Assembly (NCBI GenBank): GCA_021848325.1
Contig: JAJZUU010000006.1
Location: forward strand, 1 to 64,000
Direction of reading: 5' to 3'
DNA from: Pseudomonadota bacterium
GTDB taxonomy: Bacteria > Pseudomonadota > Gammaproteobacteria > Burkholderiales > JAJZUU01
DNA: 64,000 nucleotides
The notes beneath the pieces were generated by a model that was not told the DNA's origin, searched no databases, and saw nothing but the letters and a program-made list of their open reading frames with translations. Both the position numbers and the translations under genes were made by a program. Of this stretch, positions 1,110 through 62,761 are shown in pieces; position 1 is the stretch's first letter, and every line of letters begins with the position of its first letter.

Positions 1110-1131
1110 ATACTTACTGCTTAACAGGTCC
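1110..1131. repeat. half copy of the 45-bp palindrome, cut by the IS1111 remnant
   Basis: Bases 1110-1131 match the right arm of the palindromes at 11062-11106 and 62328-62372 at 20 of 22 positions, and are followed by TAA as at 62373. The missing left arm is replaced by the IS right end, so the junction lies at the dyad centre. The last base (C1131) completes the TAG stop codon of the universal stress protein gene on the minus strand. Confidence 0.75.
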
Positions 1132-11003: not shown

Positions 11004-11045
11004 CGCCTGCCCCGCGGGATGGCCAGGCCCCCGTATCTATTTTAG

Positions 11046-11293
11046 GAGCCTGCCGGACTTAGGACCTGTTAAGCATTAAGTGTAACACTTAATGCTTAAC
11101 AGGTCCTTAAAGGAAATCGGCTGCAAATCCGCCTGACCGGTCCATATTTCGCCGCTTTTTTGGCCAATAGAACGACTATATGACCTGCAAAATCGACAAA
11201 ATCTGTCCTCGGCCAGCCGAATTTTGCGAGCAGCCGCTACGCGGCTTGCCTGCCTGACCCGCTTCGCTTCGATTCTTCAAGCCCGACAGGCTC
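11046..11293 (+). repeat. MITE-like element, copy 1 (with nested palindrome and extra 39-40 bp)
   Basis: This copy matches the 160-bp element at 13509-13668 in the same orientation, with scattered changes. It has the same terminal repeats (GAGCCTGccGGACTT at the left; reverse complement GAGCCTGTCGGgCTT at the right) and is flanked by TTAG (11042-11045) and CTAG (11294-11297). It differs by carrying the 45-bp palindrome plus a duplicated TTA at 11059-11109, and an extra stretch near 11227-11265 with a small hairpin (AGCCGC-tac-GCGGCT). Its right end lies only 35 bases before the start of the DedA-PAP2-LssY gene. Confidence 0.8.
11062..11106. repeat. 45-bp palindromic element flanked by TTA duplication
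   Basis: The sequence starts GGACCTGTTAAGCATTAAG and is a perfect inverted repeat of two 22-base arms around a single A. It interrupts the MITE copy: the uninterrupted copy reads GGACTTAAAGG, here it reads GGACTTA-palindrome-TTAAAGG. This gives a 3-bp TTA duplication, as expected for a transposition event. The orientation, judged from the central base, is opposite to the copy at 62328-62372. Confidence 0.85.
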
Positions 11294-11328
11294 CTAGCCC
11301 CAGAGGGCTCCACGAAAGGGACCGATGC

Positions 11329-13383: not shown

Positions 13384-13508
13384 TTGCGCGAGAAAAAGCT
13401 GCTTCGTTTGGCGACACCGCCGGCGCGATGATGCCCGGCTAGCTCGACCGAAAGCCGCGCGGGCGGCGCGCCAGCCGCGTTCCCTTGCGAGAAGGACCGG
13501 ACTCCTAG

Positions 13509-13668
13509 GAGCCTGTCGGACTTAAAGGAAATCGGCTGCAAATCCACCTGACCGGTCCATATTTCGCCGCTTTTTTGGTCAATAGAACGACTATTGACCT
13601 GCAAAATCGACAAAATCTGTCCTCGGCCAGCCGAATTTTCGCTTCGATTCTTCAAGTCCGACAGGCTC
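13509..13668 (+). repeat. MITE-like element, copy 2 (160 bp, 15-bp terminal repeats, CTAG duplication)
   Basis: The element begins GAGCCTGTCGGACTT and ends with its exact reverse complement. It is bounded on both sides by CTAG (13505-13508 and 13669-13672), which looks like a 4-bp target duplication of the YTAR type used by IS5-group elements. It has no coding capacity. The right-hand CTAG supplies the TAG stop codon of the SulP gene on the minus strand. Copy 1 lies 2.2 kb upstream in the same orientation. Confidence 0.85.
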
Positions 13669-15474
13669 CTAGCGCGTCTCGCCGTTGGGCAGGCTGGCGT
13701 TGCATTCTCTGAAGATCCGCGCCTCGCAGGTGCGGCAGATTTCCGTGTCCAGCCTGGGGTAGATATTCTCGATCGGACGCGTCTTGGCGGGAAAGATGTT
13801 TTCGTCGCCGATATCCAGGATAAGCCTGTCTTTGCGCAACAGACCGTACACCCCATCCTTCATGCGGTAGAAGTACAGCCCGCCGCCGATCTTCTTGCGC
13901 CGCTTGGCTTCCTGGGCCAGCATCTCGGCGCCGGCAATGTCCACGAAGTTGATGCCGCTGGCCAGGATCACCACGTGTTTGGCCTGGGGGTTGACCTCGT
14001 CGATTTCCTGCAGGGACAACTGCACGTGGTTGACGGCGCCGAAGAAGATGGAGCCGTTGATGCGCACTATTCTTACCTGCGGGCATTCCGGCCGGTTCTC
14101 GGCCGGGATGTAATGGTAGCTGTCGGGTTCGGGATCCGGCACCATGGCGCTGATGGCCGGGCGGGAGGTGCGGTACAGGTACAACACCAGGGACAGGATG
14201 ATGCCGAAGAAGATGCCCTTTTCCAGGTCCACCAGGGTGCCTATCAGGGTCACTAGGAGCACCACCGTTTCGGCGCGGCTGGTCCTGAAGATGGAGCCGA
14301 TGTGGTGGAAGTCGATCAGGCCGTAGGCCACCAGGAACAGGATGCCGGCCATGGCCGCGGTGGGCAGATAGGCGGCGAGGGGCGCCACCAGCAGCAGGAT
14401 CAGCACCAGGAAGACGGACGCGAACACCGCGGCCAGCGGGGTGCGCGCGCCGGAGGTGTAGTTCACGCCGCTGCGGTTGAACGAGCCGCTGGAGGCGTAG
14501 CCGGAGAAAAAGCTGCCCAGGATGTTGGACATCCCTTGGCCGATGAACTCCTGGTTGCCGTCAATGCGCTGCTCGGAGCGCACGGCGATGGCCCGCGAGA
14601 TGGACACCGCCTCGGTCAGTGCCAACAGGGTCACCACCAGGGCGGGGAACACGGTGTGCTTGATGGAGGCCAGCGAGAAGTCGGGATGGGAAAGCGGCGG
14701 CAGCCCGGACGGCAGCGCCCCTACCGCGCCGATATGGCTGGTGTCGATGCCCACCGCCGCGTTGACGATAACGGCGACGATACTGCCGATGATCATGGCG
14801 GCGATCATGTAGGGGAACTTCGGTAAGAAACGCTTGACGAAAATACCCGAGATCAGGGTGATTACCCCTACCGTGGTGACATAGGGATTGATGTCGCCGA
14901 ACTGGGCGAACACCTGATGGATCACCTCATGGAAAGGGGTGCCGCGGGGAATGCTGATGCCGAAGAAGTGCTTGATCTGGCTCGATGCGATCAGCACCGC
15001 GGCACCGGCGGTGAAGCCGATCACCACGGTATGGGATATGAAATTCACCAGCGCGCCCATGCGCGCCAGCCCCAGGATCAGCTCGAAAACCCCGGTGAGG
15101 AAGGTGAGGGTGAGCACCATGCTGATGAACTGCGGGGAACCCGGCTCCGCGAACGGACTCACCGAGGCGAATACCGCGATGGAGATGGCGGTGGTCGGCC
15201 CGGACACCAAGTGCCAGCTGGAGCCGAATAGAGCGGCGATGACGGCGGGCACCATGGCCGCGTACAGACCATACTCGGGTGGCATGCCGGCGATGGTGGC
15301 GAAGGCGACTGCTTGGGGCAACACGATCATGGCGCCGGTTAAGCCCGCCATCAGGTCGGCGCGGCCGCTTTCCCTGGTGACCATGGGCGCCCAGCGCAGG
15401 AACGGAAATACCTTATAAAGCCAGACGTTACAAGCGAGGATGTCTTTCAATGCGGCGTTCCGATCTGTTCTCAA
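13669..15474 (-). CDS. SulP family anion transporter with STAS domain
   Basis: The 601-residue protein is a SulP/SLC26 transporter. It starts with the amphipathic helix and the signature region DLMAGLTGAMIVLPQAVAFATIAGMPPEYGLY, has 12-14 membrane segments, and SGASSGSFNRSGVNY-like sequence in the middle. A cytoplasmic STAS domain occupies about residues 440-560. A short tail with CRTCEARIFREC (two CxxC-like cysteine pairs) follows and is less usual. Members import sulfate, bicarbonate or other anions; substrate unknown. The frame starts with TTG at 15474 and has no strong ribosome site. The TAG stop lies in the target duplication of MITE copy 2. Confidence 0.88.
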   Translation of the reverse strand: MRTDRNAALKDILACNVWLYKVFPFLRWAPMVTRESGRADLMAGLTGAMIVLPQAVAFATIAGMPPEYGLYAAMVPAVIAALFGSSWHLVSGPTTAISIAVFASVSPFAEPGSPQFISMVLTLTFLTGVFELILGLARMGALVNFISHTVVIGFTAGAAVLIASSQIKHFFGISIPRGTPFHEVIHQVFAQFGDINPYVTTVGVITLISGIFVKRFLPKFPYMIAAMIIGSIVAVIVNAAVGIDTSHIGAVGALPSGLPPLSHPDFSLASIKHTVFPALVVTLLALTEAVSISRAIAVRSEQRIDGNQEFIGQGMSNILGSFFSGYASSGSFNRSGVNYTSGARTPLAAVFASVFLVLILLLVAPLAAYLPTAAMAGILFLVAYGLIDFHHIGSIFRTSRAETVVLLVTLIGTLVDLEKGIFFGIILSLVLYLYRTSRPAISAMVPDPEPDSYHYIPAENRPECPQVRIVRINGSIFFGAVNHVQLSLQEIDEVNPQAKHVVILASGINFVDIAGAEMLAQEAKRRKKIGGGLYFYRMKDGVYGLLRKDRLILDIGDENIFPAKTRPIENIYPRLDTEICRTCEARIFRECNASLPNGETR

Positions 15475-62310: not shown

Positions 62311-62327
62311 GCGTTTTAGGAGCCTAA

Positions 62328-62372
62328 GGACCTGTTAAGCATTAAGTGTTACACTTAATGCTTAACAGGTCC
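62328..62372. repeat. 45-bp palindromic element flanked by TAA duplication
   Basis: Two 22-base arms (GGACCTGTTAAGCATTAAGTG... and its complement) surround a single T, and TAA occurs on both sides (62325-62327 and 62373-62375). It is the inverse of the copy at 11062-11106. Its last base completes the TAG stop codon of the minus-strand gene at 62372. TTTTAGGAGCCT just before it (62314-62325) matches the start of MITE copy 1. Confidence 0.85.
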
Positions 62373-62761
62373 TAAAACAGGCTGAAAATGTCGTTGACCA
62401 CGTCGTTGGCCACGGCAAAGCCGGCGCCCATCCCGAGCCCGCTGGCCATGCTGCCCATGAAGCCGCCGCCGGGCCGCCCGGTCCAGCCCTGCGGCTGGAC
62501 CGTGGGGTTGGGGTGGGTCTCCAACTGCGCTTCCAGGGTCTTGATATATTCCGCCATCTGGTTCACCAGCATGGCCGTGGCCTGGGTCTGGCTTTGCACG
62601 GACATGGCGATTTCCCGGAGGTCCATCGCCCATTCCCTGCCGGCGGTTTCGTCCGGGGCGGCGGCCCGCAGTTTCTGGGCTAGGGCCTGCATGCCCTGGA
62701 CCATGGTTTGGGATTGCTGCTGCACCTGCATCACCTGGTTTTCCGCACTGGCGTAGTCCAT
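62372..62761 (-). CDS. hypothetical protein with coiled coil and glycine-rich C-terminus
   Basis: The 129-residue product has a glutamine-rich coiled-coil N-terminal part (VMQVQQQSQTMVQGMQALAQ), a middle helix and a Gly-rich end (GGGFMGSMASGLGMGAGFA, then VANDVVNDIFSLF). No domain is recognised. The stop codon TAG is completed by the palindromic repeat. It lies 103 bases after the PhoH gene on the same strand. Confidence 0.6.
   Translation of the reverse strand: MDYASAENQVMQVQQQSQTMVQGMQALAQKLRAAAPDETAGREWAMDLREIAMSVQSQTQATAMLVNQMAEYIKTLEAQLETHPNPTVQPQGWTGRPGGGFMGSMASGLGMGAGFAVANDVVNDIFSLF

Follow-up and report, generated by a model that had tools for sequence, protein, structure and literature searches.

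The window analysed here, a 64,000-nucleotide stretch from a Pseudomonadota bacterium of the order Burkholderiales (GCA_021848325.1, contig JAJZUU010000006.1, positions 1-64,000, forward strand), contains two 45-bp palindromes, each with 22-bp arms around a single central base and each flanked by a duplicated triplet (Table 1). The flanks read CTTA..TTAA around copy 1 and CTAA..TAAA around copy 2. Since a palindrome has no orientation, TTA and TAA represent one site seen from opposite strands. Copy 1 interrupts a miniature inverted-repeat transposable element (MITE) of a different family, and a sister of this host element, apart from an internal deletion of about 40 bp, displays the empty target within the same window. 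If the palindrome is taken out of 11041-11300 together with one TTA, the sister sequence reappears, gapless at the junction. The two palindromes, their flanking triplets and the interrupted MITE with its sister had been described in a sequence-only reading of the window and are confirmed here. As single strands, both palindromes adopt a 21-bp hairpin of -22.4 kcal/mol (z about -13). The 19-nucleotide end of the palindrome family has five matches in the window, one of them with one mismatch (1113-1131), against an expectation of 0.00 in shuffled sequences, and chance is excluded as their source.

Table 1. Coordinates of the palindromes, their target sites and related elements. Positions refer to the window unless a genome or contig is named.
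Feature	Position	Strand	Remarks
Palindrome copy 1	11062..11106	.	45 bp, 22-bp arms, central A
Target duplication TTA, left of copy 1	11059..11061	.	
Target duplication TTA, right of copy 1	11107..11109	.	
Host MITE, different family, split by copy 1	11044..11297	+	TAGGAGCCTGCCGGACTT.. ends
Sister of host MITE, palindrome absent	13506..13672	+	empty target, ~40 bp internal deletion
Palindrome copy 2	62328..62372	.	45 bp, 22-bp arms, central T
Target duplication TAA, left of copy 2	62325..62327	.	
Target duplication TAA, right of copy 2	62373..62375	.	
Lone orphan end of palindrome family	1113..1131	-	GGACCTGTTAAGCAGTAAG; TTA outside, partner end absent
Complete 266-bp MITE, own genome	C103:49603-49868		
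34-bp imperfect palindrome, own genome	C7:26922-26955		arms GGACCTGTTAACCAA / GGGCTCGTTAACCAA
G038 elements compared for arm variants	G038:C1, 2112168, 2662055, 2666414, 3838269, 3942246, 4053384		
Genomes with MITEs of the order-wide superfamily			G038, G072, G026, G121, G299, G319, G335, G354

A wider search, as the earlier reading had proposed, offers a greater level of detail about the origin of these palindromes. In the window's own genome, a draft of 3.0 Mb in 119 contigs, the 19-mer end has 53 matches at up to three mismatches, and the reversed control has none. The 45-mers share their ends with a longer element, a 266-bp non-coding MITE with two hairpins between inverted repeats of about 30 bp (GGACCTGTTAAGCATTAAGTGTTACACGCG), of which one complete copy is present. 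Inward of the common 30-bp repeat the sequence is of two main types, left (GTTACCCCCAGAAAGCCCGCAGG..) and right (GGCGGCGAGGATTCGGGCCC..), which together enclose the MITE. As single-stranded DNA, the 266-mer folds into one branched hairpin of -103 kcal/mol (z -14). The genome holds about a dozen of the longer parent forms and a similar number of short remnants; many MITE copies are broken at contig ends, which the assembler was presumably unable to cross.

The two ends of the family are also found at a series of shortened spacings: 168 bp (C11, C18), 152 bp (C24), 56 bp (C40), 45 bp (nine sites), 25 bp (C2) and 22 bp (C70:45341). All nine 45-mers, the 25-mer and the 22-mer consist of just the two termini within matching TTA or TAA duplications; the flanks of the 56-mer, TAA and TAT, do not match. 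Each terminal repeat contains GTGTTACAC, which is nearly its own reverse complement, and hence the two inverted repeats also share short direct repeats. Among the longest direct repeats common to both parent ends, the predicted deletion products measure 56 bp (joined at CGCGT), 45 bp and 25 bp (joined at TTAA). The 45-bp product is joined at GTGT or ACAC, both parts of a 9-bp GTGTWACAC repeat with one mismatch. The predictions agree exactly with the two window copies and with the 25-mer, and the 56-mer deviates from its prediction by one base. Arm markers offer a further comparison: at position 13 of the repeat, 9 of 13 right-type parent ends have T, but none of the 14 left-type ends does (Fisher p 0.00015). 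The 45-mers at C12, C20 and C82 pair a C arm with a T arm, the composition that joining a left end to a right end would give.

The same 266-bp MITE is present in a related genus of the order, where one orthologous site displays both forms. In the leader of a gene which we take, from its protein sequence (MKIRPLHDRVIV..), to be groES, the 266-bp MITE of the relative G150 and a 47-bp palindrome in the relative G144 occupy one and the same base pair, at which seven further genomes have no insert. Both inserts have the same TAA duplication and the same flanking T, and in each of them the two arms carry the variants G7A and T20C. The simplest reading of these sequences is that of a single insertion, with the core later lost in the G144 lineage. 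The palindrome scar in the G144 leader (C79:50788-50834) lies between a CIRCE-like repeat and groES, and its hairpin could influence groES expression. At other G144 sites, the ortholog of the C3 palindrome in G154 is empty and exactly 48 bp shorter, G154 is likewise empty at the site orthologous to C34, and the search at C63 yielded no clear filled ortholog. One G144 copy of the 266-bp MITE (C31:14480-14886) has grown to 407 bp through an internal insert.

The formation of palindromes is not restricted to one arm sequence. In G144, 266-bp MITEs at C34 and C57 belong to a second arm family, GGGCCTGTTAATG, which has its own 45-mer (C25, TAA duplication), 46-mer (C20) and 54-mer (C60). When GGGCCTGTT ends at close spacing were searched for across 399 genomes of the order, nine genomes proved to carry palindromes of 31-52 bp, mostly with other arms (reversed control, 0). 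Some of them are flanked by TA, TTA or TCA duplications and some by none, and in relatives the flanks often have only TA in common. Full-length elements with similar ends, 264-280 bp and in some cases longer, occur in four of these genomes, G038, G319, G328 and G354. Repeated formation of palindromes with many different arms is what a deletion process would produce, and a single mobile 45-mer accounts for it less easily. An exact-pattern scan of GTDB contigs matched two relatives of the order and gave two single matches elsewhere, the latter probably by chance.

Taken together, the long and short forms at groES, the several lengths joined at different microhomologies and the separate 45-mers of a second arm family favor deletion in place. 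The 45-bp palindrome is most probably the remnant of a 266-bp non-autonomous element that lost its core after insertion and left its two ends behind; it is probably not a jumping gene itself. In the proposed course of events, the MITE, with its two large hairpins between inverted repeats, would insert at a TNA target and duplicate 3 bp. The duplications and the empty sites establish this insertion step. Once the site becomes single-stranded, for instance during lagging-strand synthesis, the MITE might fold into its very stable branched hairpin, and slippage or annealing between the direct repeats within the inverted repeats would then remove the core. What the sequences show is the parent, its products, their duplications and the one long/short pair; the replication intermediate and the transposase-free nature of this deletion are inferred. 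Joining at GTGTWACAC, CGCGT or TTAA would yield the observed 45-, 56- and 25-bp products with the target duplication left intact. The scar is predicted to be inert for transposition, as two transposase-bound ends could hardly be synapsed across 45 bp.

Several observations weigh against this explanation. No direct repeat of at least 3 bp accounts for the 22-mer, and a simple junction at a microhomology also fails to explain several palindromes in other genomes. At the groES site, the genomes that come closest to G150 and G144 in this region, G152 and G157 respectively, are both empty; for the two filled genomes to share the site, there would have to be losses, a recombined locus or two separate insertions into a single target. 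A long-form ortholog is found at groES only, in relatives, and none is available for any site of the own genome. The commonest length is 45 bp, which would equally be expected if the 45-mer were mobile.

This last point leads to the alternative put forward in the sequence-only reading, that of a tiny transposon: a transposase supplied in trans would recognize the abutting repeats, possibly in an extruded cruciform, and insert the 45-mer with a 3-bp duplication. The perfect duplications at all nine 45-mers, the position of copy 1 inside a MITE with an uninterrupted sister and the empty G154 ortholog would all be expected of such an element, and comparable 52-bp terminal-only elements of Haloquadratum have been suggested to be mobilized (PMC3119063). 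The duplications do indicate that something with these ends was inserted; insertion of the 45-mer as such is not required, since arrival of the 266-bp parent followed by loss of its core explains them equally well, and the empty G154 site fits either model. Against a mobile 45-mer, its copies, with heterogeneous arms of partly mixed left and right type, differ mutually and would not seem to stem from one recent master. Other lengths exist alongside it, one site holds both long and short forms, each of two arm families has produced its own 45-mer, and the synapse geometry across 45 bp would be unfavorable. We regard transposition of the 45-mer as such as unlikely, and slightly less probable still is a combined course in which an abutted-end palindrome first arises by core deletion and subsequently transposes in trans and spreads, which would make the 45-bp, or even the 22-25-bp, form the smallest possible transposon.

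Two further explanations disregard transposition of the short form altogether. Selection of the palindromes as regulatory or terminator elements at conserved positions would agree with their strong hairpin, with the location of copy 2 between two converging open reading frames and with the groES leader palindrome near a CIRCE-like repeat. The sequence-only reading had named missing duplications, or identical palindromes conserved in position across many species, as signs of such a role; the short forms of the own genome are instead consistently flanked by duplications, the 56-mer being the exception, and the comparison of filled and empty sites reveals sites that are empty in relatives (G154 and the seven groES genomes). 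Neither window stem is followed by a T run, and the window has no Rfam match. With the duplications and empty sites already speaking against it, a general regulatory function appears very improbable, though single copies could have been co-opted for regulation. The least credible explanation is an assembly artefact, in which short-read assembly would have reduced the 266-mer to its ends. Both G144 and the own genome are indeed drafts, with many of the longer copies at contig ends, but the palindromes bear private substitutions absent from the longer forms, comparable palindromes lie on contigs of 4.5 and 4.2 Mb (G038 and G147), and G144 elsewhere assembles 266-mers.

The arms of these elements hint at an additional process. 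Among twelve 45-mers there are seven symmetric changes, present in both arms, and 19 changes in one arm. The six G038 elements compared (Table 1) have a total of five arm mismatches, against a mean of 14.3 with arms swapped between elements, and only 2 of 720 permutations are as low. Judged from these sequences, the arms of an element resemble each other as if they had been homogenized, which would fit the same hairpin. Homogenization of inverted repeats through template switching is known (PMC8604942). Alternatively, the symmetric variants of the 45-mers could stem from parents whose arms already matched.

The second proposal of the sequence-only reading, abutting terminal repeats of an IS5-group element with a TNA target, holds in part. 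The ISL2 and IS1031 groups of the IS5 family insert at TNA targets and generate a 3-bp TTA/TAA duplication. The elements described here have abutting ends and the same duplication; unlike in that family, no transposase or full insertion sequence with this repeat was found. In the incomplete draft genome, none of the DDE_Tnp_1 loci has these ends around its transposase gene, and no full element combining the repeat with an IS5-family DDE transposase was found. Membership of the IS5 group is thus not claimed. A transposase fragment beside one arm at C47 was considered as partner and rejected, its best match being DDE_5, and it appears to be inserted into the arm. Other insertion sequences have seemingly landed at TTAA within arms of the family (C33:14646, C47:873, C74:386), bearing either a DDE_5 transposase or ends similar to GGGCACCTCTAAAAATT.

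Some neighboring features are of interest in their own right. With 62312-62327 joined to 62376 onward, the host site of copy 2 would read GTTTTAGG-AG-CCTAAAAC, a perfect palindrome between the converging reading frames that resembles the end of the other MITE family. The orphan end borders the segment 1-1131, which by eye we take to resemble part of an IS110-type transposase gene. The 34-bp imperfect palindrome on C7 has a different arm sequence and also TAA duplications. Across the order, MITEs of about 260-280 bp with two internal hairpins, a short similar centre (..CCGGAGGGTTA.. or alike) and quite different terminal repeats form a superfamily (Table 1). They have no Rfam match at the four element loci scanned, and the 266-mer has no plasmid match. 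The literature searched contains no description of the superfamily or of the present element family.

Known systems provide a framework for these observations. When Tn10 or Tn5 undergoes nearly precise excision, the core is lost independently of RecA between short direct repeats in or near the terminal inverted repeats, which leaves a small palindrome and an intact target duplication. The present case has the preserved duplication and would share the loss of a core between short direct repeats within terminal inverted repeats; it differs in its parent, a non-coding MITE of 266 bp, and in its scars, which are natural and repeated in the genome. Slipped mispairing or single-strand annealing is known to remove inverted repeats that contain direct repeats or lie between them, and the Tn5/Tn10 version of this loss is the nearly precise excision mentioned in PMC12524634 and PMC5576700 (reference 15 of the latter being Collins et al. 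1982). The closest natural case is that of the 52-bp Haloquadratum walsbyi elements (HqIRS46, ISHwa23), where a site holds the long form in one strain and the short form in another (PMC3119063). Those elements are archaeal and of IS605 type, have no terminal inverted repeats and are joined via a 19-22-bp direct repeat, whereas the elements here have inverted repeats, duplicate TNA and are joined via 4-9 bp. REP and REPIN sequences of Pseudomonas are likewise short palindromes, with excision events observed and REPINs attributed to RAYT transposases (PMC3116915), but the ends of the present palindromes are those of MITEs, and their flanking duplications are of TNA type.

On this reading, the palindromes are fossils of nearly precise excision that occur naturally in bacterial genomes and can be counted there, and comparable palindromes are present across a bacterial order. 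They would explain, as a class, those perfect palindromes that stand alone between transposon-like duplications. Such palindromes should be named with caution, and not be called terminators, regulatory sites or new transposons. The Haloquadratum study left open whether the short form moves (PMC3119063), and the remnants described here pose that question in a testable form: can fused ends still move?
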